Shown here one piece after another: positions 45,001 through 64,000 of a stretch of DNA of 64,000 nucleotides. This stretch comes from Rhizopus arrhizus (Eukaryota > Mucoromycota > Mucoromycetes > Mucorales > Rhizopodaceae): positions 1,054,001 to 1,118,000 of the forward strand of contig JAKZZE010000010.1 of the NCBI GenBank assembly GCA_024220505.1. Reading direction: 5' to 3'. Below the pieces are notes generated by a model. It saw only the letters and a list, made by a program, of their open reading frames with translations, was not told the DNA's origin and did not search any database. Within the stretch, counting starts at the first letter, position 1. Each line of letters opens with the position of its first letter. Position numbers and translations under genes: made by a program.

Positions 45001-47200
45001 TAGGCCACTCCTTTTTTAATATAAATAAGAGCTATTAAGCGTTCGATCAAGTTAACTAAGCTCATGTCATACAAGACTCCAAACTTCAAATTAAATGAAT
45101 CTATTTTACTTTAATACAACCCAAATTCCAATTATAAAGTTACACTACTAAATAATTGATCTGGATTATGAATGAATATAAACTAAAATCCAAGAAAGAA
45201 TGAATTATTCGTAAATCACGACTACGGAAGTATGAAAATAATAAATATTTCTAGTTCACAAGAAAAGCAATGGGGATGTATTATTAAAAGTTGATATATA
45301 AAATGTCATGAGAAATAATAAGCTATGAAGAAAAAAAGAATGTATTATTTTTTGATTGGCATAGTAACTCTTGTCTTTGAAATATCTTGCCTAATAAAAC
45401 TGATTTCTGTATTTATAATTTACATACTATTCAATTACTTCAAATAAAAAGAAATTTATCTGATTCATAACAAATAATAATAACATTTGGAAATCACAGC
45501 TGTAATTTCGCCAGCATTTCTTTTAAATCAATTTCTTTTTCTTATTTAAACAGGAGGTTTATTTTTTCTTGGTGAATTAGACCATTTTACTATTTAATAA
45601 TTAATTTATCCGAATCTTTCTACTTTCAAACTCTCATTTCTTGAATCTGAATTGGCATAGGCCCAAGCCTAAACTTAATTTTAGATGGTTAATCACATTA
45701 AGCGGTGGGAATAAGATTTGTTACTGATAGTATCGTTGTTATAAGCACAAGAATTGTAACTTATAAAATTGCAATGAACAAATAAAGAATATTTTCATAC
45801 TATTTTAATATACACACTTGGGTTTGATTACTTTGATTTGAAACGAAAAAAAAAAAAAAAAAAGATCAAAATTTCGGACCATTTATTTATGTCCTGAGTT
45901 TGAAGTTGGCTGTTCTTTTGATCCGGATTTCGGTCAGATACATTACCATTTGACTTTTGGTTTTTCTCTTATTATAAATTAACCTTGAAACGGAGATTTC
46001 TATTGCAGAGAAATGATAATCTTCTTGAGTAACATTCAGTACGTTCAGCTCTCGTGCTTTTTTTAAAAAAGATATGAGTCGCGTAACCAAAATGATTGAA
46101 ATTAGTAATAAATATGGTAACTGAATCCTATCGTCCGGATTATAAAAAGGTTATCAAAAAGCATCCACAAATATTCTCGGTTCATTTCGCTGTCTTGTAA
46201 TTAATCGTACTTCTTTTTTTTATTTTAATGGTCCAACAATTTAATACTAAAGAAGTATCCTTTATCTTCAATATGTTTTTAATTAGTAATCGTAGGACAA
46301 GCTACCATAGAACGCTGTCTATGCGAAATGCAATCCTTTGTAACTACTTGAATTATTATTGAAAATGATGGTCTGTTTATGAGAAACAGGTTTAGATGGT
46401 TTGAATTATTTTGTGTTTGTAAATGAATAATAGTATCTTTTTTTCTAGACAGGTTATATACTAGTACAATATTCGGAAGAACCGATAAGCTTCATTTATT
46501 TAACACCCAGTTGCACAACCAATCTGTATCTTCACAGCAAGCTGTTCCTATTTGATTTCTGTGATGTCAGTTCTTGAAATTAAAGGGGAAAGGGGGTGCA
46601 TTGATAACCAATGGAAAGCGAATGATTATGCATTTGTTTGTTTCAAAGCTATGTCTTTGGAAAAGTTTTTACCGAGAGTGGGAAAAAAATGTTCCATATT
46701 TAATGATCTGGGCAAAATGTATTATTAAACCGGAGTTATTTTATTACTAAGTAAAAAACCATTCACTCAAACTACATGAAATGATTGTGAGCAATAAAAT
46801 GACATTTAATTCAATACATAATAGCTACATAAACGAGAATAAATTGGTATGCTAATATACACTTTGTCTGATTTGATAATCATATTAATGATATGCCTTT
46901 GTACAACTAAAGACAATGGTTTTACCGCAAATGTTTAAAGGCACCTAATTTGTTATTCGGAATTTGAAGATATGGTAGAATTATTCAGGCTTTTGTCAAC
47001 TTTTTCCGATCACCTAATAATAATAAAAAAACATATAAAAGAAGGCAGTTCTTGAGCTTTCCAAGAAAAAAGTTTTTTTTTAAATTTTTTCACTGTCTTC
47101 TTTACTTCTTCATATACCTGCATTTACTTTTTAATTATTTGCATAATCTCTTTTACTTTAATACATCAATCATCCTAATACAAAAGTAATTTGATCCAAT
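42027..47200. other. 5.2-kb gene desert upstream of the PDR pump
   Basis: No intact gene was found. A G-run lies at about 42116-42124. A somewhat GC-richer patch at 42690-42930 reads as protein-like (LTYNVNTTNYLLFELPAHLT and LQGIKVSDQGLN) without a start or splice context, perhaps a relic. A-tracts are at 43871 and 45847. The left arm of the large inverted repeat begins at 45944 (separate entry). The last 370 bp is the PDR promoter. Confidence 0.5.
45944..46830 (+). repeat. Left arm of a large inverted repeat (upstream region of the PDR gene)
   Basis: This arm reads, with about 90% identity by eye, as the reverse complement of 63499-64000. The shared blocks are 45944-46075 and 46457-46830. 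The left arm carries about 381 extra bases (46076-46456) absent from the right arm, flanked by a short TAT-like junction, so either an insertion here or a deletion there. Homology on the inner side stops sharply at 46830. It may extend further left, because the right arm runs off the window. Confidence 0.9.
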
Positions 47201-50200
47201 ATGGATATGCCACTGCAACCAATGCTCTCGGTACACGCTGACCGAGATGAAGAATTTAGACAAACACATAATTCATCAGACGAATCAACCATCGAAGAAG
47301 TACATCAAAAAGAAGAAACCAACAGTGAAAAAGAATTCTCTAGTCAAAACCATCGCGGTGACTTTGGTGAAGTCAGTGGAAATGCAGTGAACATTCAAAA
47401 TGCCATGTCCAACTACGAAGAACTTCGCAGAGAATTAACAACTCAGTCTCGTATGTCACGTATCAAATCCACTCATGCCTCGGATGCTGTTGACGTTGCC
47501 GAAAAGGGAGATGTCAAGGACTTTGATCTTACCGAATTTTTGAGTGAACAAAATGATCAATCCGCTAATGCCGGTATGTATCCCAAACATATGGGCTTGA
47601 TCTGGAAGAATTTGGTTGTTCAAGGTGTTGGTGCTGATGCAAAGGTGATTCCAACAAATTGGACTTGGATCAGAGATACCATAAAGTTCTGGAAATGGGG
47701 CAAGCAAGCTGGTAATGATTTCACTATCTTGAAGGGCAACGATGGCTTCTGTAAGGATGGTGAAATGTTGCTTGTTCTCGGTCGTCCTGGTGCGGGTTGT
47801 ACAACCTTACTTCGTGTCTTGGCAAACATGCGTGCCTCTTATACAAGCATTGAGGGCACTGTGTCCTATGGTGGTATTGAAGCCCAGGAATTTTCCAAGT
47901 ATTACCGTGGTGAGGTTTGTTATAACGAAGAAGAAGATCTTCATTATCCTACCTTGACCACCAAGCAAACTTTGAGCTTTGCCTTGAAGAACAAGACTCC
48001 CGGTAAACGTCTTGAAGGTGAAACTAAAAAGGAATTTATCAACAAAATTCTTTACATGCTTGGAAACATGCTTGGTTTAACAAAGCAAATGAACACCATG
48101 GTCGGTAATGCCTTTGTTCGTGGTCTTTCTGGTGGTGAACGTAAGCGTCTTTCGATTGCTGAACAAATGACAACACGTAGTTCTATCAACTGTTGGGATT
48201 GTTCTACTCGTGGTCTTGATGCCTCCTCTGCTCTTGATTATGTTCGTTCTCTTCGTATCATGACTGATATCTTACATAAGACTACTGTTTCCACTCTTTA
48301 TCAAGCATCTGACAGTATTTTCCATCTTTTTGATAAGGTCATGGTTCTTGATGAAGGCCGTTGTATCTACTTTGGTCCTACTGCTACTGCCAAGCCTTAC
48401 TTTGAGGAAATGGGTTTCTACTGTCCTGATCGTAAATCTACCCCTGATTTCTTGACTGGTCTCTGTAATATGAATGAACGTGAATACCGTGAGGGTTATA
48501 AGAACAAGGTCCCTGTCAACTCGGTTCAATTCGAAAAGGCTTACAAAGAATCTGCTGTTTACAGTGAAATGATGCGTGAACGCGATGAATACGAACAAAA
48601 AATTAATCAGGATCGTCCTGATGAAAAGTTCCGTCAAGCTTTCGCTGAAGCTCATCAAAAGCATGCTCCTGTCCGCTCTCCTTATGTCGCTACCTATTAT
48701 CAACAAGTCAAATCCCTTACCCTCCGTCAATTCCAACTTATCTGGGGTGATAAGGGTGCTTTGATCTCTCGTTATGGTGGTGTTGTTGTCAAGGGTCTTA
48801 TCATGGCTTCCGTGTTTTTCAAGATGCCTCAAGATGTTACAGGTGCTTTCTCTCGTGGTGGTTCTTTCTTGTTCTCACTCTTATTCAATGCTTTAATTGC
48901 TCAGGCTGAACTTTCTGCTTTCATGCAAGGTCGTCGTGTATTGGAAAAGCATAAACACTTTGCTCTTTACCGTCCTTCTGCTTTCTATATCTCTCAAGTC
49001 ATTGTCGATGTGCCTCTCGCTATCGTTCAGGTTTTAATCTTTGAAATCTGTGTGTACTTTATGATGGGTCTCGTACTTGATGCTGGAAAGGTAAATATAA
49101 AGCACCTTATTTTTTTTTATAGTTTATTAACAAATTTTTCATCTAGTTCTTTACTTTCTTTATTATCTTGGTTGTGACTAACTTGTGTATGAATGGTTTC
49201 TTCCGTTTCTGGGGTGCTGTCTCACCAAACTTCTTCACTGCCTCTCAACTTTCATCTATTTTGTTGATTGCCGCATTGGTCTACTCTGGTTATCAGATTC
49301 CTTATGTCAAGATGCACCCTTGGTTAATGTGGATCTACTGGATCAATCCCCTTGCTTATGGCTACAAGGCCTTGATCTCAAATGAATTGACTGGCATGGA
49401 ATTCTCTTGTGAAGGTGTTGGATCTATTCCTTACGGTGCCTCATACACCAATGATGCTTACAAGACCTGTAGTCTTGCTGGTGCTACCCCTGGTGCCAAT
49501 TCTATTCTTGGTGATAGTTACCTCCACTATGCTTATGGTTACGAAACTTGGCAGCGTTGGATTGACTTTGTTGCTGTCATTCTCTTTTTCATCTTCTTTA
49601 CTGCTTTGACTGCTCTCGCTATGGAATATGTTGATCTTCAAAAGGAAGGTTCTATTACCAAGGTTTATAAAGAAGGCAAAGCACCTAAGGAAATGGATGA
49701 ATCCAAGGCCATGGAACAAGTTGTTCTTGAACAAGATGAAGAAATGGAAGCTGTTACTACCGGTACTACCTTCTCTTGGCATCACATTGACTATACTGTC
49801 CCCGTTAAGGGCGGTCAACTCAAACTTTTGAATGATATTGGTGGTATTGTCAAGCCTGGTCATCTCACTGCCTTGATGGGTTCCTCTGGTGCTGGTAAGA
49901 CTACACTTTTGGATGTTTTGGCTCAAAGAAAGACGATTGGTAAGATTGAAGGCCGTATTTACTTGAACGGTGAACCTCTTGGCCCTGACTTTGAACGTAC
50001 GACTGGTTACTGTGAACAAATGGATGTCCATAACCCTAATGCTACTGTTCGTGAAGCCCTCAAGTTCTCTGCTTACCTTCGTCAACCTGCTGAAGTTCCC
50101 AAGGAAGAAAAAGATGCCTATGTTGAACAGATCATTCGTTTGATGGAAATGGAAAAGATTGCTGATGCTCTTGTTGGTGATCTTGAAGCTGGTGTTGGTA

Positions 50201-51654
50201 TCTCTGTTGAAGAACGCAAACGTTTGACGATTGCTACTGAACTGGTGGGTAAGCCCAAGCTTCTTTTTCTTGATGAACCTACATCTGGTCTTGACGCCCA
50301 AAGTTCTTACAACATTGTTCGCTTCATTCGTAAACTTGCTGATGCTGGTTGGCCAGTTCTCTGTACCATCCATCAACCTTCTGCTACTCTTTTCGAGCAC
50401 TTTGATCACTTGGTTCTCTTGGTCCGTGGTGGTAAGACTGCCTACTTTGGTGAAATTGGTAAAGATGCTTCTACAATGATCAGCTATTTTGAAAGAAATG
50501 GTGGTCCCAAGTGCTCTCCTAGTGCTAACCCTGCTGAATATATTCTTGAATGTGTTGGTGCTGGTACTGCTGGCAAGGCTACCAAGGATTGGTCTGAAGT
50601 CTGGAAATCTTCCCCTGAAGCCAAGGCCTTGGAAGACGAACTTGAGCAAATTCACCAAACGATCGATCCCAATCGCAAAAACAACGCTAGCCCATACTCA
50701 CTTTCTTTCTTCCAACAATTCTGGCTTGTCTACAAGCGTATGAATGTCTCTTGGTGGCGTTGTCCTACCTATAACATGGGTCGTCTCTTTAACGTCTGCT
50801 TCATTGGTCTTCTTTCTGGTTTCTCTTTCTGGAAGTTGGGTAACACACCTTCTGATATGCAAAATCGTATGTTCTCTGTCTTTACCACTCTTTTGATGAG
50901 TAACGCTTTGATTATTTTGGCTCAACCTCGTTTCATGCAAGAACGTACCTGGTTCCGTCGTGAATATGCCTCTCGCTACTATGGCTGGGCACCGTTTGCA
51001 TTATCCTGTCTCCTTGTAGAAATTCCTTATCTCATCTTCTTCTCCACCATCTTCTTGTTCTGTTTCTACTGGACTGCTGGTCTTATGAACACCTCCGATC
51101 GTGTTGGTTTCTTCTACATCCACTTTATTGTTTTCTTGTTCTACTCTGTTTCACTCGGTTTCACTATTGCTGCATTCTCAAGTACTCCTCCTATGGCTGC
51201 TGTCATCAATCCTTTCTTTACTTCCATTTTGATCTTGTTTGCCGGTATTATGCAACCTCCTTCTGCTATGCCCAAGTTCTGGAGCTCATGGATGTATTGG
51301 GTTGACCCTTATCATTATTTGATCGAAGGTCTTGTTGTCAACGTCATGGACAGTATCCCTGTGGTATGCGATGCTTCTGAATTTGTAAAGATCCCTATTC
51401 CCGATGGTACAACTTGTGGTAATTACATGGCTGACTTCTTCAATGCTGGTGGTAATGGTTATGTTGAAGATAATAATGCAACTGGCTCATGTAACTACTG
51501 TAACTACAAATATGGTAATGAATTCTATGAAGAAAGAATTGGTTGGAACTTTAGCAATAGATGGCGCGATTTCGGTATCCTTTGTGCATACTGTGTCTTT
51601 AATATCTTTGCCTTCATGTTCTTTGTATTCTTATTCAGAAAGGCCAAGCGATAA
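47201..51654 (+). CDS. PDR-type ABCG full transporter (pleiotropic drug resistance), 2 exons
   Basis: Exons 47201-49090 and 49147-51654 encode 1465 residues in the (NBD-TMD)x2 order. NBD1 has the PDR-typical Walker A variant GRPGAGCTT (Cys for Lys), signature GLSGGERKRLSIAE and a degenerate Walker B (INCWDCSTRGLDASSALDY). NBD2 has canonical GSSGAGKTTLLDVLAQRK, a degenerate signature (GISVEERKRLTIATEL) and intact LLFLDEPTSGLDAQSS. This asymmetric pair is usual for Pdr5/Cdr1. Each half has about six membrane helices with a Cys-rich extracellular loop before the last. It exports hydrophobic drugs or lipids at the plasma membrane. Codon use is strongly biased (CTT/GGT/AAG), suggesting high expression. 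Upstream DNA is duplicated in inverted orientation at the window's right end. Confidence 0.96.
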
Positions 51655-51855
51655 ACTCTTTAAATATTATAGAATTCCCTCTTTTATACTGTACATTATT
51701 ACATACATTGAAAATAAAAATAATTAATTAGACAATAATTAATTGAATGTAAAGTGAAATGAGCTTTTCTGTTGATATTCAAATTCAAATGAACACATTA
51801 GATGATATGAAGAAGATTTTATAATTTTAATAGTCTTATATGAAGATATGTTTAA

Positions 51856-53312
51856 CTAGAACTCTGTCTTTTTTCCAGCATACGCCTTTTTTACGGGTAA
51901 TTGATGTGGTTGTTTTTGCGGTTGCGGTTGCAGTTGCTGCTGCTGCTGTTGTTGTATTTGTTGTATTTGTTGTTGTTGTTGTTGTTGCTGTATATCTTGT
52001 GATTGTTGTGTGTTGTCTAGTATGCTTACAGCATCATCGCCAGCAGCACCTATTGAGTTTTTCCTTGCTTTTTTTACTTCAATGGATTTCCTTCCTTTTT
52101 TCTCTTCAGCCACTCTTTTCTTTTCTTGTTTTTCTTCCTCCTTTTGCGCCCTCAAATCTATAAATACATAAAAATATGAGTATTGTTTTTTATGCAATAA
52201 ATAAAGATGTTTTTTTCTTACCTTCATTTGCCTTTTTTATTGCTGCAGACGCATTTTGCTCAAATTCACTTGCGGCCTTAAAATCAAGCATTTGGACTCT
52301 CTGTTGTCTCTGGAAGCCTCTAGGTACACTTGCTGAAGTTCGGCTACCACTAGGAGTACGCTGAATAGGTTTACCAGCAGATCTTGGTTTTGGCTTTGTG
52401 ATAAACAAACTAGATCCGCCTGCAGGAGCAGCTCTTGGTGGAGGTGGTCGAATAGGTCTGGGGAAGCTACCAGAGGTAGGTGTGGTTGGGGGTGAAGCAA
52501 AGCTGCTGAATGGATTGGGAACATTAGAAGTGGGAGAAGTGAGAATACGCTTCCCCATTCCTGTTATATCTGCCATACTAGGTCTCTTTTGAGCCGTCAT
52601 GATGGGTACATCTGCTCCTTGTTCTGCGCGTTCTTCTCTCTCTGCTAGTGCGGCTAGTTGGTCTCCTGGACTGATTGCGTGAATACGATCTTCTACATTT
52701 TCTGTTAACATACAGTGTCGTGTAGTTGTTGGTTGCCATTGTGTAAAATCAGGCGAGACATTAGATGGCACAGGACGTACTTTAGGATCCAATATCATAT
52801 ATTCTGGGGAGTGAAAGCTAATACCATGTTGCTTGACTGTTATAAAAAATTAGATATGAAATTAGGTTAGTGTTTTTTTATTTATTTATTTACTGAATGA
52901 CTTGAGTTTGTTCAAGACTGAATCAGAATGATCCCAATGTTTAATATTGTCAATGTTCAATCTTTGTGTTTCAGGATATGTTTCAAGGATATTAGCCATG
53001 ATATTTACAAAATCATCGTCGTCAGTATTTGCTATTTTACAGATCTAACAGCATATTGGTAAACAAAAGGGATCTCAGTAATAAAACTTTTTTCTTCTCA
53101 AACCTCTACAAAACTATTTTTCACGGCAGTCAAATCTCTATGCTTAAAGTGCAAGGATGACAATAAAAGGTCTAATTTGGTTCGTTTATCTAATTCTGTA
53201 AAAGAAGCTGCAGCCATTTCAATCACATCGTCTGAAAGTCTTCCAGCAACATGAGCGCTGTCCCAACCAGTCTTTGGTTCTTTGAAATGACAGATTTTAT
53301 GAAGTCCACTGG
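51856..53312 (-). CDS. NELFA: NELF-A-like transcription elongation factor, 5' exon missing
   Basis: Visible exons 53312-53104, 53044-52894, 52836-52222 and 52157-51856 encode about 424 residues. The N-terminal helical domain (LSDDVIEMAAASFTELDKRT, KLDLLLSSLHFKHRDLTAVK, FVEICKIANTDDDDFVNIMA, NILETYPETQRLN) aligns with the NELF-C-binding HDAg-type domain of metazoan NELF-A. A Pro/Ser-rich middle (IRPPPPRAAPAGG), a basic helical stretch and a polyQ tail follow. NELF holds promoter-proximal RNA polymerase II with DSIF. The first visible exon starts at acceptor AAAAG|CC with no in-frame ATG before a TGA, so a short first exon must lie upstream. That position is occupied by a LINE insertion at 53347. 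The gene could be spliced over it or dead. It is convergent with the PDR gene. Confidence 0.75.
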
Positions 53313-53346
53313 CTTTTGTTCATAAGCCGTTTTATAAATAAATGAG

Positions 53347-55480
53347 TTTTTTTTTTTTTTTTTTATGTATGAGGAGTTTATTCTTGTGTCGCCTTTAGAC
53401 GTACACTGTAAGAAAGCATTTAAATAGATAGAATAAAAGTATAAAATTAATGTGATATCTGATTATTGTCTTGGAATTCTTTCTGATAAAGATTTTCTTG
53501 ATGCATTCTGCGGAGGAGCATAGTAGCTCTAGCAGCTGCTTCATTTGGTCAAAAGGGCGATCCATCAAAAACAAGTTTCCAATGAGTTCGCCAGAGGCAC
53601 AGTACACCACAGGCGATTGCTTGGAAACAATCAAGTTGCCAGTGCGGACGCACTATGGCTGAGATTGCGTGAGGTCGAGAGATTTCATCAAAAGTCAGAC
53701 GTGGGGTCTGTTCTAAGAAATGAGTTGAAAGTGTATCCCACATAGGCTGTTTAAGTGGACAAGACCAGAAGAAATGTTCATCAGATTCGATTGCGCCACA
53801 CAGCATACATCTTTCATCAGTAATAGTGTTTGGCATGATTTTGTGCAATCGGGATCGTGTTGGCGGCTTGGAATGATAGAGTCGCCAAAGAATGGTTCGT
53901 GCTGGATGCGGAATTGAGGTGTGCCAAAACTGTGTCCAGGATGACTTGCTGGTTCGAGGGTAATGAGAAGGTAAACTAGCTAGCGGCAGCTTGTCAATAT
54001 GACGGAACCATTTTGCTGATATATTTTCAATTGGTGTGCCATCTGGTAGAGGTGAGCTAAGTAGAGAATGAAATTCCGGTTCAGGGGGAGGGAAACCCAA
54101 AGAGAAGATAGCAAGACCAGGTGAGAGATCAGAAGTACTTCTGAGAGCTGTAAAAAAGTTTTCTTCCTTAACGTGACATAGTGAGAGAAGGTCAAAATAT
54201 GTCTCAGATCGATTATGTTGTTTTCTCGATAGAAAGGAGGTGATTGGGGTAAGCTTTCCATCTACATTGCTAAATCTATATAAGTCTTTAACCAAATTTG
54301 ATTTCCAATAGTTGCAAGTGTGATAAGGATCATTGGTAAGCAGTAATGGGCATATACGGCTCAAAGGGATCTCTGAAGCTGAGCTAGCGTTCAGTGCCGT
54401 CCAATCGATCTCAAAATCTATTTGATCAATAGTGTTGAATAAGGAGTTAAAACAACCAAGTCTGTGTAGATCGGTGGTGCATCACTCAGGAAATAGTAGA
54501 GATAAAAATGGTGATGGCGCAAACGACAAGGCACAGAGAGTGTATTTCATGAAGCTGGTAGCAAAAGATTCTGGAGTGGGTGCTAGATCGGATGAGAGGA
54601 TCAGTGGAATAAGCCATCGTATCTGCAAGGCAGAATATTGCGTCGACGGGTCCATTATAGCGATACCACCCTCTTTACGTGGTCGCTGGCAGTCTTGGAA
54701 TTTCACATGCGGAAAGTTCTTCTGTTTCAAAAATGATATAATCACCGTACGTATCCGCTGAAAGAAATTTTGAGGAGGTGACAAAACCCTTATACTATGC
54801 CAAACACGACTAAGGAGGAGTGAGTTGGCAACCATGCTGCGACCTAGTATGGACAACCGTCGCTGTGAGAGGATGGTAGCATGTTTCTCGATTTTTACAA
54901 TAAGGCTATCTAAATAACTAGACAGTTGTTGAGCACTACTTGTGAGAGGATATCTAAGGTAAGTGGTAGCTGAAGATGCCCGTTTGTCATGCCACTTGAT
55001 GATTCCGTTAGCAAAGAGCGTTTGTCTCCAATCATGGTGGTCTTCCCCTGAAAGGGAGACAGTTATAGTCTTGCCACGATTCAAACGAGCGTTGGAAGCT
55101 TTGCCGTATAGAGATACTAAATATAATAGTGTCTGCAACTCTGTAGATCGTGTAAGGAAGACCAGGACATCGTCTGCATAGGCTAATGCCTTCAATGGTG
55201 GCGATGATATTGGCAGGGAGGTAAAATTAGGATGTTGCTGTCTAAGGAATGTAAATCCCGAGATAAGTGGAGAGAACCATATAGCACGTAGCAATGGTTC
55301 TATTGCCAAATTGAAAAGTAGGGGAGAAAGGAAGTCTCCTTGGCGTAAGCCTCTATCCTGCGAAATCGGTGCCGTAAGGAACCCATTAACGTTTATACAA
55401 AGAGAAGTCCCAAAAAACAGAGAGATAATACTGACAACCAATGGTTGTGTCGTATCCCAACATACTTTAAACATGATTCA
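53347..55480 (-). mobile_element. 5'-truncated LINE retrotransposon with poly(A) tail
   Basis: The minus strand ends in 18 A (53347-53364), typical of target-primed reverse transcription. One reading frame (55474 down to about 53420) carries part of a reverse transcriptase: ISLFFGTSLCINVNGFLTAP, RGLRQGDFLSPLLFNLAIEP and the catalytic YADDVLVF. A zf-RVT region follows (PARTILWRLYHSKPPTRSRL, CMLCGAIESDEHFFWSCPLK). TGA stops interrupt this frame at 54484-54482 and 53551-53549. The RT starts mid-domain near 55470, so endonuclease and ORF1 are missing. The copy is dead. The exact 5' junction and a target-site duplication were not found. Confidence 0.85.
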
Positions 55481-56964
55481 TATTCAATTTATAAGAAATC
55501 AGAGTAGTGAATGCTTTACAAAGATTTATTACAGTCTTTTCTCTATTATTCGGTCATAACTAATTCCACTCGTTTAACTCAATACAAGTTGTTTTAATAT
55601 AGCTCCTGATGCAATGAGACATAAATGAAAAATAGATCTACTTAAATAATTATAAACAGTCCACTTGCATAACCAGAAACAAGTCTTTATACTAAAGTCT
55701 ATTCATGCTAGATCTACAGCTATAATTAATTAAAGTATCTTGAAAAGGATTTAATTGAATCTACATGAAAAGGATATAAATACCAGATACAATAATATTA
55801 AATAAAAATATAACTTTTTAAGTCTCGTTGAATTTTATAGTCTTTTTTAATTCTTACGAGATAACACAGGCAGTTTCCGATCTATTGGAAGTTGAACAAG
55901 ATGGTGCCGTTGAAATCAGTGAAAACGATACCATCCGAGCAATGCTACAGCGAGAGTTATTCTCTTGTCAAACATTATGATATTAACTATAAGATCAGGT
56001 GTGTGGTATTTCCGTAGGTTTTGAGAAAAAAATACTTTTATAAAAAATTAATGAGAAAGAACTTCAAGGTCTCTTTATTCAGAAAAATAAAGTTGAGCCT
56101 TTTCTACTGTTAAAATTAAGTGATATTTATACATTTTGATGTCTTGTGTTTTCAGTAATAGATAAATTGATATCCAACTGAACATTTCCAATCCTGGTTA
56201 TCCGGTAAGCTGTATTCTTGGATGTTTGACAATTGAACCACTCGAATGCATCTATAGGCCAGGTGTGTTACATAATCTATGGCATTTCCTCGTGAAACAT
56301 CTTACTTTAATATGATAAAATATCATTGCAATTCGGATGTTCTTTGTACAGAAAATGTGTAATCATGTAAAGGAGTTTATAACAGTTGTAAAGTCACACT
56401 TAAAGTTGTTTAGAACCTTTTTTATTATTCCATGTAATATGATTCGATAAAAGTGGTTATATCCATTAGTTCTCACATAACTGCTTTTATCCCGGGAACT
56501 AGTTTTAAACATATGAGTCTCCTAACTGAGTAATCCGGTGGCGGAATTATACACTCTTCACTGTCTGTGTATTCTTCTCACTGTATACCTTTTATTGTCA
56601 TACAGCTGCAATTAAATGATAAAATATGAAAAAATATTGCAAGTACATGTTAAAGGCTTTCGTACTTAATTTAAGTTAGCTACTCTTACATCAAGATCGT
56701 TAGATCTTGTTATATTGTTTCATACATCATTGTAAACGCTTAAAATAATATTTTCAACTCTGTGTGATTATCAATTGTTGTCTTTCATATTTTGATCTTG
56801 CGCGTCGGAATATGAAGTGAAAATTTTTTTTTTTTGCAGTGTCAAAATACTTATTGTAATTTATATATATGGTTTGTTATATTAATGAATCAGCCCCAAA
56901 TACAACAAGGTGCAACCATCTAGTATCATATTTATATCATACTAGTGGTTTTAGATAAAATATA
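55481..56964. other. Region between transposons with small coding relics
   Basis: Two plus-strand stretches read as protein: 55858-55979 (EITQAVSDLLEVEQDGAVEI and onward to a stop) and about 56170-56312 (IQLNISNPGYPVSCILGCLT, IEPLECIYRPGVLHNLWHFL). They have no starts or motifs I recognise and may be exons or fragments of a broken gene. The missing NELF-A first exon would be expected on the minus strand somewhere in or beyond this region, but I could not identify it. Confidence 0.35.
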
Positions 56965-58475
56965 CAGTGATAAGGCGTGATTTAATGATAAAAGTAATGT
57001 ACAAATACGACATGTTGGTTTGTGTAGGTTTGTGTAGTTCTTCCTAGTCGAGACACTTACCAAAATATTCAACAGAATGAGAAATAAAACCTTTGAAGTC
57101 ACTCAATTATAGACTATCGCAGGCTTCGCTAATTCTGGTCATCAGTGTCTCTTTTTCAAAAAACTTATTCCGCTTCACTTTACTCTTGACGACCGACCAG
57201 AACTGCTCAATGAGGTTTAACTCTGGTGAATATGGAGGAAGATATACAAATCGATATCCTGAGTTAGTATACTTGCCTATATCAGATGAGCTATGAATAG
57301 GAGCATTATCCATAACAAGGTAATGTCCTTTCATTTCTAGATACTTGTCCATTTCATCAAGAGTAGCCTTTAAAAAGCTCAGATAATGCCCTGCCACTGT
57401 TTCCCTGCTATAAGCATCAATCTCATGTCCAAGCTTTCTCTTTTTAATACGCTTTGGAACTCTCAAACTAACATTAATTAAGCCAGTGGCAGAGATTGCA
57501 CTTAAAATTGATGTTGCGTTTGCTGTGGTTGTAGGCACTGTAACTATTGCAGGAGTTCCTTTCCTTGACCAAGCTATACTTCGTTTCAAATTAACATGAA
57601 AGGCTGATTCATCAAGAAAGACACAATTTTTTACAAAGCCCAAGTCAGTATGCTGCCACTTTTGGACCCAATCGTACCTTTGTCGAATTTTTTCGTCACT
57701 GATTCTTTCCACAGGGTGAAACTGTGTTTGCTTAATGGATAAATTACATTGAGTTATCATGAAGTTATAAACAGTGCTACGAGAAACATTAAGATCTAAA
57801 AATTTTTGCCTTAAACTTTCTGCCAATTCAGTCAAAACAGCGGAAGCATTCTCATCAATGTAATTTAAAAAAAAATTGCTTATGCTCCTCCCCAAGAATT
57901 CGATGTCGATCTGTCTTTTGCTTTATCTCGAAAATGCTTTCGGGATCTTCGTAATAATGTTTGACCCATATCTGGAGTGCACGAACATGAATGCCTAACT
58001 GTCTCGCGGCAGCAGAAGCATTCAGATATTTACTAAAAAAATAAGTTAAAAAAATCTAGTTTTCTCATAATCAGAGTAAAACGTATAGCGTCGCTTATTG
58101 CATAACTCCATGTTAACATCTTCACCATTTGTCTCGTCCGCGGTTCGACGCATTACAGGATTAAATCTTTCTGAATATTTGTTCTGTAAAATTGAGTACG
58201 AGAACTTATTGTTTCGATAGCAAACAGTTCCTCGTCAACAGCAAGATCCATAAACTCAACTCCGTGCTCATCAACATGTCCTTGACCATCTTCGTAAAGA
58301 AATTGCATACTCATTTTGAATATCTGCAAAACAAATTGTAATCAGGAAAAGGAGAGCAAAAGAGAGCAAGAAACTTATCAGCTCTTAATAAAAAAATAAA
58401 AATGCCAAAGAAAAATTACTAAGCGACATGTAAAAATAATTGGCGACCTCATTTCTGGCCCAAGTGGCATCACTG
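56965..58475 (-). mobile_element. Tc1/mariner-IS630-type DNA transposon, inactivated
   Basis: About 1.5 kb surrounds a DDE transposase on the minus strand. Tentative ends both begin CAGTGAT, with TA outside the left end (56963-56964) but TT outside the right. Beyond seven bases the ends diverge, so the boundaries are provisional. The length fits a Tc1-like element. Confidence 0.45.
57107..58326 (-). pseudogene. IS630/Tc1-like DDE transposase with frameshifts
   Basis: Reading from ATG 58314 the N-terminus is MSMQFLYEDGQGHVDEHGVE, then a frame change to RFNPVMRRTADETNGEDV and KRRYTFYSDYEKTRFF. Another change leads to the helix-turn-helix KYLNASAAARQLGIHVRALQ, and a one-base slip in a T9/A9 run (about 57869) leads to the catalytic part. 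The catalytic domain (57895-57107) is otherwise open, with FLDESAFH, VMDNAPIHSS and PPYSPELNLIEQFWS giving the D, D and E of the IS630/Tc1 triad. It would cut and paste a DNA element at TA. Frame breaks in homopolymers could partly be assembly errors. Confidence 0.8.
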
Positions 58476-58697
58476 TTGGAACGGCAACTTTACTTTCAAA
58501 ATGACTGTCTATTAATTAAACTATGGTTAAGCGCTATGAATTAAACCTAGCAGCATCTTTTCCTCTTATTATGTTTTATTTCATACAGTATTTGATCGAT
58601 AATTTGTTTTTGCATTTACCGATAAAATTACATCTTGTCTTTCGGACAATTATATTTTTATTAACCGTCAACCATTTCTTTTATAGTCGCCAATTAT
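58434..58697. repeat. Possible short inverted-repeat pair
   Basis: ATAATTGGCGAC (about 58436-58447) and its reverse complement GTCGCCAATTAT (about 58686-58697) are 12-bp perfect inverted repeats about 260 bp apart. They may be ends of a small MITE-like element. One of them overlaps the direct repeat flanking the LINE to the right, so the match may have another cause. Confidence 0.3.
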
Positions 58698-58889
58698 ATT
58701 TGTTAAGCATGATATTTTATTTATTTATGGTCCATTTGAGCGCTAAAATATACAACAAATAAGTGTCCGCCCGGACCAGTTCAATCCGTTTGGAAGTGAG
58801 TGCTAAGAAAAAAAAACCCCTTCTGGTTCAAGGGTAAAAAATGAGAAAGGCAAGTAGGGTGTATAGAGAGACATTTGAAGTTAGTTAAA

Positions 58890-61800
58890 TTATCTCAGCC
58901 ATTCAATTAGTTTTTGGCCATGAGGTGTCTTGCATGGGATGGTTGTATCGTGTTGTAGTTGATCTAATCCATGGAGGATAGAACATGTAACGGGCCATCG
59001 CCAGGTCCAGGACAAAGCAATACTAGAGGGAACAAATGCGCGTGTCGGAAGCATATTCAAAAGGAAAGATATAGGGTCGGCTATTGTTTCAGGCATACAG
59101 AGTCGGCGATGCGTATTGAAGCAACTGATGGCGTGTCGTCCTGAGGCAACTGATGGCGTGTCGTCTTGAGAGGTTATTGCTGGGATGACGGGGGTAGGAT
59201 TTGGGGGCCCCATCCGGTAACCAACCAAGGCGCCATCGTATACATCGACTTCTTTCTTCATGAGTCATTGGTAGCCACAAGATGGGGTCGAGAGTGATTG
59301 TTGGTCGACAGCTGGATAGCAGTTTGGAGTTCTTACCTTGGATCTGTTTTTCAAGGTTAGAGTGGAGGAAATTCTTTTTTATCGCTCTAAAGCCTCTTGC
59401 ATCTAAGTCGGCTATCGTCGGCGGCATCAATCTCCACAGAGCAGTTTTTGATAGTCGACACCATTGATGGCCTCTTGTGTACTGTATGTGTGGCGTTAAG
59501 AGATATAGTAGTGTGTCCTCAGGCAAAGATAATGAACGAAAGAGGAATTGGGCTTGCAGGATAGCTATCCTTTCTTCATTGTGAGTAACTTAGCCAAATG
59601 CAGCATCACCTTGATGGATGTTTTTCCAGATGCGCCATAGATCTTACGTATGCATTGTTTTGTGCCTCTTCTAGAGTTTTTAGCTGAGTACGATTGAAGC
59701 AGTTAATAGCTATGCCGTATTCCATTTGTGGTTCGAACTATTTGAACATAAAACCGAGAGCATAGGAGCTTGGAGAATCCTGAAGGATTTACCCAATAGA
59801 AGATAGAGCATTCATCGTAGACATGGATTTGAGAATATTGTTTTGAACAAGCTTCTCCGGATCAAGGTGACCACCTGGTTTGAAGGGTATTCCTAGGTGG
59901 TTAAACAGTTGTCGCTTGCGGTATAACTTGATCATAGATCGCATATACTATTGTTTGTGGTTGGTTGTCCAAGATGACACATTTTGAAGGCTTCCACTGG
60001 TATCCCATTTGCATACTGTGTTCTTCGCATTTTAGTAGTAGGTCAACCATTGTTGAGCTATTGGCTATTAAAACCACATCATCCGCAGAAAGTAAGCAGT
60101 TCAAGAGTGGTGCTAACTGTAATGGCGATGTATCCTCCTTTATGGTTTGAGGGCGTAGATATACCGGAAGTTGATTTATAGTATACCGAGTAAAAGGTAG
60201 GGCGAGAGGATGGATCCTTGGAGTACTCCAGTCTTTGGATAGAAACGCCTAGAAGTTGCGTTTGAGACAAGTACTGCTATCTGAACTTCGTCAAACAAGT
60301 GCGTAGAAGACCTAGGATTGGAGGCGATATACAATGCTGTAATATCTTCCATATATAGTTTCTGTCAACAGTATCATAGGCGGATTTTATATCCAGAATG
60401 GCCAGAACGGGCTTGCTATGATAATGTGAACGCAGTATATGGCAGATCTCTGCAAGGCAAAGTGTTTGGTCTAACGCACCACGGATTCTCTAAAGCCGCT
60501 TTGTGCAATGTCAAGCGAGGGTCCGTTAGTTTGCAAATTATATTGTATGCAACGTTCCAGATCTTTCTAAGATAGAAGTTAGGCTGATAGGTCGGGTAAT
60601 TACGCGGGTCTCGTCAGTGGAGCTTTTATAATATCGGGACAACTTGAGCAACACGCCAAGATTGTGAAGTATAAGACCACATCCAATACAAACGGAAGAG
60701 CGAAAGAAGAAGCGGTGTCAGTAGACGTTGTATTGGTTGGAGCATTTCATTCCGTAGGTGATCCACACCAGGTGCTTTCTTTGTTAGTAAGTTTCTAATG
60801 GCTTCTTGGATATCCTCTGCAGTAATTGGGCATTCTATCTCAAAGGGTAAAATTGGATTATAAATATTGTTTCTTTGAACTTCCCTTAGCAATTGTCCCG
60901 AAAAAACATTCTCTAGATGTGAAGCCATTATGTCTGCAGCATGCTGAGGGCCTTGTGGTGTAGAGAAAGCTGGTCGTAGGGTACGATGTTTACGGATACG
61001 ACTAAGTTTAGAAATAGCTTTGTGTACTCACCGTTTGCCATCTGATAACAGAACCTACGCCAGTTTTCTGGACGTCGTTGGTGAATGAGGCGCCTTAGCG
61101 TTGCACGTGCTTGTTGATGTTGTAACCAGAAATGGAGTTTATTCAGACCGTATGCTTTACGCCATTTTCTATAGTAGTATTCTCTAGCCTCGTATACTTG
61201 TCTCATTTCTGCTGTCCAAAAGTCCTTCAATGGATCGGTTTGTTGGAATATGCGTCCACAAATGCTATCCAGTGACATATATATTGCTTGGCAAATGTCA
61301 TCATTTAGTTTTTTCAATAAAATCTCTTGCTGACTGTTGATCTTGAGGCTGTTGGTTATTGTTCTCGATCGACATTGATATATTGTTGGCTACATTTTGG
61401 AAACTTTGGATATATTGATTCCTTGTTTTGGCTTCTTGCAGCTTTGTGAGCCTCCGAGTGATATGTGGTTGTTGGCTATGGACTTCTGGTAATATGCTGG
61501 GATGAAATGAAAAGATATCATCTTGTGTGCAGAATCCAAAGAAAGATCTTCCCATATTGTTAAGGAAGGGTTACATAGCTCAGTATCACTCATGAAGAAG
61601 TCTATGATGCTGCTACCTTGGTGTGCTATAAAGGTGGGGTTTCCATATGCAAGGCATTGGTTCCATAATATGAAATTATGTTCTTGCAACCATCTATATA
61701 TCATGTTGCCTCTGGGGTTTATAGAGCTATCTCCAGTATAAGATCCCATTCTTGCATTAAAATCGCCACATAGGATGGTTTGCTTGACATCGGGTGCGGT

Positions 61801-62073
61801 ACGTGGTAAGGAATCCAGGATTTGACTAACAACTTGATTGTCAAGTGAGGGCGGGATAAACACAATGAACGAGAGTGTCTGCGATAATGAAGGAGAGTTT
61901 GTATTGTGAAACCGACATGTTGTCGCTCGGTAGATGATGAACATGATATGGGCAGGTTGGATTAATAAGGAGACTGATACCTTGAGGCCCTTAGTGGCTA
62001 GGGGCTGTGTTTTGATGCCATATGCGTAAAATTGTTTCCAGTGAGTAGGGTATTTTTGGGCGGCAAAAGCCAA
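58890..62073 (-). pseudogene. LINE ORF2 remnants: endonuclease and reverse transcriptase
   Basis: The largest open pieces are 62073-61390 (endonuclease, 227 codons), 61317-60928 (linker, YYYRKWRKAYGLNKLHFWLQ), 60928-60626 (RT start), 60104-59901 (YADD-equivalent ADD box) and 59526-58890 (C-terminal part, WRLGWLPDGAPKSYPRHPSN). Pieces overlap or abut in different frames, showing at least four frameshifts. One frameshift is explained by the 25-bp tandem duplication at 59121-59170. The protein would nick target DNA and reverse-transcribe the element RNA. No intact ORF remains. Confidence 0.8.
59121..59170. repeat. 25-bp tandem duplication inside the LINE
   Basis: The units 59121-59145 and 59146-59170 share 24 of 25 bases (core GCAACTGATGGCGTGTCGTC). 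As 25 is not a multiple of three, it shifts the LINE ORF2 frame. Confidence 0.9.
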
Positions 62074-62415
62074 GTTTCAGTAATAAGAGAACCGAGGAAG
62101 ATTGGGCAAGATGGAGTATGGTGACATGACCTGTTTTGCTAGGCCTGTGGCATTGAAGAGAGTAGTGATTGGACTCATATGGAGGCTGTATCATCCATAG
62201 GAGCCGTAGTTTGGTTCATGTCCTTAGTTTCTTCAAGGATGTTCATGTGGCCATCATCGGAAAAGAATATGTCTATATCTTGCTGTCTGTTTATTGTTCG
62301 TGCTGGCAGAGTTTCTTGTAAGAGCTGTTTGCTGATCCAGCCCTTCGAATAAAGTATCGGGCAACGGCAAAATTTGACTGGGGCTCGAATGTATTGTAGA
62401 GCTCTTTCAATGCGG

Positions 62416-63425
62416 TTACAGTGATGCGTAAAGCAAGGTTTTCTCGCTCTGCAGGGTGCGGTCAGCATATTTTGGATCACGAAGCACTTGGGGATCATAA
62501 GGATTAAAGTCCTCTTTGATGGTTACTTTGAAGCGTTGTAGTTGTTGTCGTAGTTCGTCTTCGTAACCATTGTGGATCAAAAGGGCGACAATGTTACGAT
62601 CAGGGTAATGTATGTCAATGATGCGGTTATTATTAATATCCAATTTGCGCAAACGGAAGCATATCTGCCCAATAGGTACTCTAGTCTTCGTAAGCAAGTG
62701 GATATATTTAAATCCTTGGTTGGTAGAGGGTGGCTGTAACAGACGTGTGGCAGCTTCTTGTCGTTGTAGGCGTCGTTGTTGTCGTTGGGCGGTCAGTTGG
62801 TCTTTAATTTGCTGAAGTCTTTCATATTGGTGCCATGGAGTTGATTGTAAAAGTGTTGTTGTGGTATTGCGAAGAAGAGGGAAATCTGATGGGTTTAAGG
62901 GATTTGTAGTATTCGAGGTAGCATTCTGTTGATTTAGTTGTTCCTGGAGATGTGCTGTCTGAGCTCGAAGTCGTTCAATTTCAGTTCTTGCGGAAGCTAA
63001 TTCTTTTGTTAATAGTTGGATCATGTTAAGGAGAGACTGCAATCATTTTGGTTGCTGTTGGTTTGTGTCACTTGGGATGACATAGCACCTTGGAAAGATC
63101 CAGAAAATTCAGGATTCATTGATGTTTGTGTGTTTGCAGGAGTAGACTGCGTAGAATTACAATGTTTAACATAGTTTTGGCTCGGAAGCTACTGCCGCAA
63201 CCATGCAACGGAAAATAGTTGTGGAGGCTCAGATTTAGTAGAACCGTTTTGGTGGAAAGTACCCTTTTTCTCGCAATTAGGACATCTCAGAGATTTGCGA
63301 TGGGACTCGAAATGAGAATAAGTAATTTTTCATCCTGTGATAGGATATTATTAATATTAGACAGTTTAGTGTTGCTATTATTATCAGATATAGCAGAGTC
63401 TGGAGGCATAATTAACGTTCTTTAA
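62416..63425 (-). pseudogene. LINE ORF1 remnant with coiled coil
   Basis: The main open piece 63042-62416 (208 codons) starts after a frameshift near 63040. It has a clear leucine-heptad coiled coil (LLTKELASARTEIERLRAQT, AHLQEQLNQQ), a Gln/Arg-rich helix and a compact domain (RVPIGQICFRLRKLDINNNR, DRNIVALLIHNGYEDELRQQ), typical of LINE ORF1 RNA chaperones that trimerise by coiled coil. A further stretch continues in another frame to 62175 (IERALQYIRAPVKF). The upstream frame has MNPEFSGSFQGAMSSQVTQT. It would package LINE RNA; this copy is broken. Confidence 0.65.
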
Positions 63426-63498
63426 TGTTTTATTGTTGTTCGTAGTGTGTGTAACGTATAAATTCGCGCCAATTATATTTTTTATAGCCGCCAATTTG

Positions 63499-64000
63499 AT
63501 GTAGTTATTATGCATTGAATTAAATGTCATTTTATTGCTCACAATCATTTCATGTAGTTTGAGTGAATGGTTTTTTTTATTAGTAATAGAATAACTCCGG
63601 TTTAATAATACATTTTGCCCAGATCATTAAATATGGAACATTTTTTTCCCACTCTCGGTAAAAACTTTTCCAAAGACATAGCTTTGAAACAAACAAATGC
63701 ATAATCATTCGCTTTCCATTGGTTATCAATGCACCCCCTTTCCCCTTTAATTTCAAGAACTGACATCACAGAAATCAAATAGGAACAGCTTGCTGTGAAG
63801 ATACAGATTGGTTGTGCAACTGGGCGTTAAATAAATGAAGCTTATCGGTTCTTCCGAATATTGTACCAGTATATATCTTTTTTAAAAAAAGCACGAGAAC
63901 TGAACGTATTGAATGTTAAAAGGATTTTCATTTCTCCGCAATAGAAATCTTCGTTTCAAGGTTAATTTATATTGAGAAAAAAACCAAAAATCAAATGGTA
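63499..64000 (-). repeat. Right arm of the large inverted repeat, running off the window
   Basis: Its reverse complement matches the PDR-upstream region 45944-46830 with about 90% identity, lacking the 381 bases at 46076-46456. Shared landmarks include the block around AACATTCAATACGTTCAG, the block around ATTCGGAAGAACCGATAAGC, and AAAGGGGAAAGGGGGTGCAT. Homology stops at 63499, two bases beyond the direct repeat next to the LINE, so the LINE has displaced or separated whatever lay downstream. No second PDR pump is visible beside it. Confidence 0.9.

Follow-up and report, generated by a model that had tools for sequence, protein, structure and literature searches.

Why should the region upstream of a drug pump gene recur, in inverted orientation, some 17 kb away from that gene? 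The question is raised by a stretch of 64,000 nucleotides of the Rhizopus arrhizus genome (assembly GCA_024220505.1, contig JAKZZE010000010.1), hereafter the window, which carries a gene for a full-size PDR/ABCG transporter. A preliminary description had suggested that the repeat could be the remnant of an inverted pump duplication, or a substrate for inversion or hairpin-mediated amplification. When the contig was followed past position 64000, further pumps came to light: the repeat is indeed tied to a pump duplication, but only a block of about 1 kb, made of promoter and junction sequences, is inverted, and the pump itself is not. We consider the locus to be, with good probability, a direct tandem array of PDR/ABCG pumps whose duplication junction was later inverted.

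The window corresponds to positions 1054001-1118000 of contig C2 in an assembly of 50.26 Mb and 41 contigs. Coordinates below are those of the window and continue past 64000 as window-equivalent positions. The contig was extended by 10 kb to the left and 60 kb to the right for self-comparison (C2:1044001-1178000), and by 20 and 70 kb for comparison with contig C3, which carries the single close paralogue of the pump (C3:1003844-1008332, 93% protein identity).

The pump array and its inverted junctions

Self-comparison of the extended contig reveals long direct repeats: 47106-69647 aligns with 64738-87299, an alignment of about 22.6 kb across the array at 99.4% identity, and 47106-52016 aligns with 82390-87299 at 99.2%. 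The array can be divided as follows:

47106-64737: unit 1, about 17.65 kb, from the self-comparison
64738-82389: unit 2, about 17.65 kb, from the self-comparison
82390-88732: unit 3, shorter, ending just upstream of the start of its own NELF-A-like gene
47201-51654, + strand: pump 1, a PDR/ABCG full transporter of 1465 amino acids with one 56-bp intron (49091-49146)

Three pump copies are present on C2, all on the + strand, with starts at 47201, 64833 and 82485. The domain succession is PF14510, PF00005 and PF01061 in the first half of the protein and PF06422, PF00005 and PF01061 in the second, that is, the N-terminal PDR domain, two ABC ATPase domains, two ABC2 membrane domains and the PDR_CDR domain of a full-size PDR/ABCG transporter. 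The reading frames of pumps 1 and 3 are intact and differ by 12 codons, seven of which change a residue while five are silent. Those of pump 2 are interrupted, which, given the consensus quality discussed below, should not be taken as pseudogenisation. In the assembly, near-identical PDR genes are thus arranged head to tail.

The inverted repeat that first drew attention to the locus was recovered both in the window (46440-46758/63572-63890 at 97%, 46753-46833/63496-63576 at 96% and 45944-46026/63918-64000 at 89%) and in the extended contig (46439-46833 against 63495-63890 at 96.5%, 45849-46075 against 63873-64091 at 91%), where the second arm crosses the window end and extends to 64091. The existence of an inverted second copy of the pump upstream region is borne out by these alignments. 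Its description as a 0.9-kb repeat holds for the presence of the arms but not for their continuity, as 363 bp (46076-46438) are absent on the right. Homology does end next to a long interspersed nuclear element (LINE), since the full-length LINE stops at 63468 and inverted homology begins at 63495-63499. Everything said to lie between the arms is there, namely the pump and a NELF-A-like gene, a Tc1-like element and two LINEs, together with a long terminal repeat (LTR) at 55448-55868 that had not been listed. The features around the first junction are:

45849-46830, + strand: U, the distal part of the native region upstream of pump 1, forming the left arm, from repeat alignments
46831-47105, + strand: proximal promoter and leader of pump 1, which stay in + orientation in units 2 and 3
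57041-58690, - strand: Tc1/mariner-like element, with a DDE_3 transposase at 57107-57895 and right subterminal repeats at about 58500-58690
58689-63468, - strand: LINE-B, a full-length element that shares about 94% identity with five others of full length
63469-63498, no strand assigned: target-site copy and last Tc1-like subterminal bases, with the left inversion breakpoint at 63498/63499
63499-64000, - strand: inverted block, part within the window, made of reversed U; the block goes on outside the window to about 64522
63499-64091, - strand: reversed U including its part beyond the window, at junction J1
64119-64368, reversed: fragment of NOT4-like exon 1, matching C2:1145351-1145102 in the right flank
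64358-64446, reversed: fragment of a leucine-rich repeat (LRR)/F-box-like gene, matching C2:1143510-1143423 in the right flank
64445 to about 64510, reversed: Tc1-like end, the last 66-69 bp or so of the terminus
from 64523, + strand: promoter-proximal segment, followed by the pump 2 ATG at 64833

These junction coordinates refer to the first copy, J1; the second, J2, lies 17.65 kb further on. Pfam models identify a RING domain and an RRM in the NOT4-like gene and LRRs in the LRR/F-box-like gene; the names NOT4 and F-box are those of proteins that we take these to resemble.

Upstream of pumps 2 and 3, then, a block of about 1 kb is flipped, with the Tc1 end, the right-flank fragments and U all on the opposite strand. 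On that strand the block opens with the Tc1 end, goes on with the two right-flank fragments and closes with U. With the proximal promoter next in line, this would be the order of a head-to-tail duplication joint carrying a Tc1 insertion, which suggests that the joint was probably inverted after duplication. Both edges are informative. In unit 1 the proximal promoter follows U without a break; in the joint, U stops at 46830 and the proximal segment resumes at 46832. The Tc1 terminus, for its part, is split across the block. Inside the block, the Tc1-like end and the gene fragment meet at a TA whose intact counterpart lies in the right flank past unit 3 (89425-89426), the join reading CACTG-TA-TCACCG and the intact flank GATG-TA-TCACCG. 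A single inversion of about 1.02 kb, reaching from inside the Tc1 terminus to the boundary between U and the proximal promoter, would account for both edges. Compared with the intact copies, the block lacks about 1.6 kb of right flank in addition to the 363 bp of U. J1 and J2 are almost the same, with mismatches at 1 of 397, 0 of 192 and 3 of 661 aligned positions and with five indels, and the proximal promoter and leader of units 2 and 3 depart from those of unit 1 by about 5% substitutions and a leader deletion of some 52-57 bp, a size that depends on the alignment.

Tc1/mariner elements have termini beginning with CAGT and insert at TA targets. The element at the breakpoint has a DDE_3 transposase, a CAGT terminus at 64445 and the TA join; its left end, with the corresponding TA, was not found. 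LINE-B interrupts the Tc1-like terminus, its insertion marked by a target duplication, CCAATTATATTT. The Tc1-like end has 11 matches outside the array, and 10 loci were examined. Both of the pieces now separated match six of these 10 termini in the same relative orientation (L044, L046, L048, L050, L052 and L053), and the outer piece alone matched in the other four.

The hybrid middle copy and a proposed history of the array

We compared the three units over the stretch common to all of them, dropping gapped columns, and found 45 ungapped sites that differ. Unit 1 is the odd one at 22 sites, all at or left of 49548, and unit 3 at 17, all at or right of 51220. At six sites it is unit 2 that stands apart, namely 47468 and the run of five bases 49933-49937; these are uninformative and probably reflect consensus error. 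There are thus 39 sites that separate copy 1 from copy 3, and 39 of 39 sort as predicted for a chimera: the middle copy resembles copy 3 in its left part and copy 1 in its right part. Such a chimeric gene, seen here at the level of the assembly only, is expected from an unequal crossover falling somewhere in 49549-51219. For independent sites, a separation this sharp would arise by chance with a probability of about 2e-11, a figure that overstates the case as the sites are clustered.

Differences between the parental copies are very unevenly spread, with 11 in the 218-219 positions of the proximal promoter, one at 47155, none in 47156-49305, ten at 49306-49548, none in 49549-51219, and then 17. 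Between units 1 and 3, the proximal promoter differs at 11 of 219 positions and the leader plus pump at 17 of 4595, in clusters, and U and its inverted copies show mismatches at 12-13 of 394 and 16 of 192 aligned positions. We read this clustered patchwork, in which homogenised gene bodies follow divergent upstream regions, as the probable outcome of gene conversion. At the ten island differences in 49306-49548, the C3 paralogue agrees with copy 1 seven times and with copy 3 three times, so that neither copy looks simply overwritten from C3.

From these patterns we infer the following order of events. A segment of about 10 kb, comprising U, the pump, NELF-A and the LRR/F-box-like gene and reaching into NOT4-like exon 1, would have been duplicated head to tail, because this is the arrangement that the order of fragments in the junction implies. 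A Tc1-like element would then have inserted into the left copy, at a TA within its LRR/F-box-like gene. Inversion of the 1.02-kb block, from inside the Tc1 terminus to 46830/46832, would have come third and taken the native distal promoter of pump 2 out of its normal position and orientation. At some stage, the spacer would also have been reshaped by deletions, by an LTR and by two LINEs. Gene conversion may have held most of the pump bodies identical, leaving promoters and small islands about 4-5% different. Last, a recent unequal crossover in the pump, within 49549-51219, would have turned two copies into three and made the middle one a hybrid.

Alternative explanations and assembly quality

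Several observations weigh against this reconstruction. Over 17,608 aligned bases (46829-82170), units 1 and 2 are separated by 41 substitutions and by 62 indel events, 54 of which are single-base. We read this excess of small indels as likely residual long-read consensus error, although only 13 of the 62 fall in runs of at least five. In LINE-B, we counted only columns that set units 1 and 2 apart and on which four or more of the five other copies agree: among 49 such columns, the majority letter is in unit 2 at 41, in unit 1 at two and in neither at six. Odd letters are thus mostly those of unit 1 in LINE-B, while the broken pump frames are in unit 2, which indicates that consensus quality is uneven in both units. 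As to the junction, self-comparison returned no match in the spacer for flank 88733-89424, and a search by CAGT motif for the left end of the Tc1-like element returned only two right-hand termini. Among the genomic termini, the match at L050 is weak, and in some the two Tc1 pieces overlap, the subterminal units being repeats; the exact breakpoint is for this reason ambiguous by one repeat unit. We also considered the C3 paralogue as a guide to the ancestral orientation of U. This failed: pump and flank stretches align with C3, but no alignable U is present there, and the orientation proposed here would follow from contiguity alone.

A hybrid middle unit and near-identical J1 and J2 would be equally expected from an assembler walking a loop twice, and the copy number remains compatible with such an artefact. 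There is a real, if smaller, chance that the array has two copies only, the pair and its inverted junction being genuine and the middle unit the product of the loop. The interrupted frames of pump 2, next to open frames in pumps 1 and 3, would also fit unpolished sequence. However, the same hybrid pattern would follow from a genuine unequal crossover of recent date, and the odd letters are not limited to unit 2. At the level of the assembly, the sequence demonstrates the direct array with its hybrid pattern, as well as the two breakpoints of the block and the mosaic order within it; the presence of pump 1, a second copy and the inverted junction is well supported, and three pump copies in the living genome are likely but unproven.

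The other alternatives concern the origin of the block and of the arms. A single complex repair event with template switching, instead of a head-to-tail joint inverted later, seems unlikely to us: the block is a patchwork with seam overlaps of 18 bp between the U parts and 11 bp between the flank pieces, and some 12 bases at its right edge are unexplained, as such an event might leave them; yet U lies in the same orientation as the two flank pieces, all arranged as in a head-to-tail joint, and the outer edges fit one inversion, with a split Tc1 terminus on one side and U and the proximal promoter contiguous within 1 bp on the other. The preliminary view of the arms as relics of an inverted pump duplication, or as a substrate for hairpin-mediated amplification, is very unlikely, although they do flank pump 1 at a 17-kb spacing. 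Every pump match on C2 is on the + strand, including those at 64833 and 82485, and no inverted pump sequence was listed in the self-comparison, so that an inverted pump copy was rejected; the three-copy pattern is that of unequal crossing-over between direct repeats, and amplification through the arms is unsupported; homologous inversion between them would be conceivable. Finally, the neighbourhood is rich in transposons, and the repeat might have been a mobile element scattered through the genome, with no relation to the pump. We rejected this idea, which is hardly tenable: a genome search with 45900-47000 gave at least seven matches, the query itself included, and those recovered all lie at this locus (C2 1099900-1136341). 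A tandem array with a subsequently inverted joint is the interpretation that we retain in what follows.

Spacer, relatives and known pump arrays

From the NELF-A-like gene to the inverted arm, the spacer contains a truncated LINE, the LTR, about 1.2 kb of other sequence, the Tc1-like element and the full-length LINE. Features not yet listed are:

51856-53348, - strand: NELF-A-like gene copy 1, a passenger, in which the ATG of unit 3 is ACG
53340-55449, - strand: LINE-A, truncated, 93-95% identical to four aligned copies
55448-55868, no strand assigned: LTR, solo in unit 1, 95-98% identical to 39 scored matches outside the array

Exon 1 of the NELF-A-like gene is open in unit 3, where it matches PF23553 with an E value of 3.8e-5 and 24.1 bits (Pfam's own cut-off is 27); against sequences of solved structures it finds weak matches only, the best being negative elongation factor A at E 0.6. 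In units 1 and 2 the start is ACG, exon 1 has a common one-base frame disruption and a LINE adjoins the gene immediately upstream. Judged by these features, the passenger is decayed in both units. The one-base change could conceivably be an error, given the consensus quality; the loss of the start codon is a substitution in both. A genome search with this gene gave three matches, all on C2, and none on C3.

The 3' end of LINE-A marks the point at which homology between units 1 and 3 stops. By eye, the 5-base stretches adjoining the LTR form no target-site duplication, which may hint at ectopic LTR recombination. Elsewhere in the genome, members of this LTR family form several pairs about 5.55 kb apart (twice on C1, and on C34, C41, C37 and C15), which suggests young full-length LTR retrotransposons. 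For the 1.2-kb stretch (55869-57040), only the two spacers matched among the 40 candidates scored out of 278, and no right-flank match was seen in the self-comparison. In the full-length LINE family (58689-63468, L030-L034 and L036), six of seven insertions lie, by eye, at a G(A/C)CA(A/T)-TAT-TTT-like target. This target resembles the Tc1-like subterminal repeats, and one mobile element may be targeting the ends of another.

The neighbourhood of the C3 paralogue partly matches that of the array, with a 1.5-kb upstream stretch and the NOT4-like region downstream at about 72-73% identity. C2:1034001-1188000 and C3:989001-1019000 share a paralogous block that holds only one pump on C3, which would fit an old duplication, segmental or whole-genome. 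The best named relatives of the pump are a Rhizopus microsporus protein (91%) and a protein labelled R. arrhizus (100% over 84% of an 828-residue query), matches that on their own make the genus Rhizopus likely. The latter protein, G6F38_010219 (P0003), equals pump 1 save for one substitution, but residues 675-766, and with them the island of differences between copies 1 and 3, are missing from it; its contig, of 6,992 bases, is near the length of the stretch common to all three units. It may possibly represent a collapsed array in another isolate, and a gene-model error would look alike.

By mechanism, the locus belongs to a kind of array known from yeasts. The passages of PMC11620501 on Candida parapsilosis describe tandem PDR pumps, CDR1B.1 and CDR1B.2, that are 98.69% identical with strongly different upstream regions, expanded in some strains to an array with chimeric copies between the parental genes. 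The Rhizopus locus, as assembled, shares the near-identical tandem pumps, the divergent upstream regions and the chimeric copy. In contrast to the telomeric yeast locus, it has a 17.65-kb unit, a passenger gene, a spacer of about 10 kb made mostly of transposons and a partly inverted joint. The likeness concerns the structure of one Rhizopus assembly, whereas copy-number variation among strains and resistance are features of CDR1B. The reference assembly was wrong at the CDR1B locus, according to the same passages, and this is a fair warning for the Rhizopus array. In Candida krusei (Pichia kudriavzevii), the tandem pumps ABC11-ABC1 are homogenised by gene conversion and their arrays can shrink to a single chimera or grow to three copies, as the passages of PMC6053246 report; tandem pumps are common to both loci, and the Rhizopus array would probably share gene conversion and copy-number change by recombination as well. 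However, the intergenic region there is 662 bp, and those passages do not describe an inverted promoter/transposon block. What distinguishes the Rhizopus array, as assembled, is this inverted, transposon-broken joint in place of the distal promoter of every copy except the first.

In the Mucorales themselves, the passages of PMC4133162 list transporters, including ABC transporters with PDR_CDR (PF06422), among the expanded gene groups of Lichtheimia corymbifera, with tandem duplicates in 42 of 66 such groups; they do not specify PDR pumps as tandem and give no junction structure. Mucor circinelloides has a PDR family, pdr1-pdr8, of which pdr1 and pdr2 contribute to azole tolerance in the parts of PMC8079984 cited here, where the order is described as intrinsically resistant to most azoles; the word 'tandem' is absent from the main text of that paper. 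For R. microsporus cyp51 deletion mutants that remained fluconazole-resistant, passages of PMC12777571 name efflux pumps as the likely cause. Among the open-licence papers listed by our searches, none reports a tandem PDR array in Rhizopus in its title or the start of its abstract, and none was seen in passages of PMC12777571, PMC8079984, PMC4133162 and PMC10896089.

As the repeat unit contains the inverted joint, every unequal crossover within the body of the pump would bring in one more pump under the rearranged promoter, the leftmost copy alone keeping the native distal promoter. Gain of copies might then also shift regulation, and amplification might ratchet towards pumps freed from native control or tied to it differently; we offer this as a speculative idea. 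More generally, we hypothesize that the array and its junction may affect pump dosage or regulation. PDR arrays that change size by recombination are drug-tolerance loci in yeasts, and the assembly shows such an array in Rhizopus. Its clear junctions can be typed across isolates by polymerase chain reaction or long reads, and the rearranged promoter offers a testable separation of dosage from regulation.

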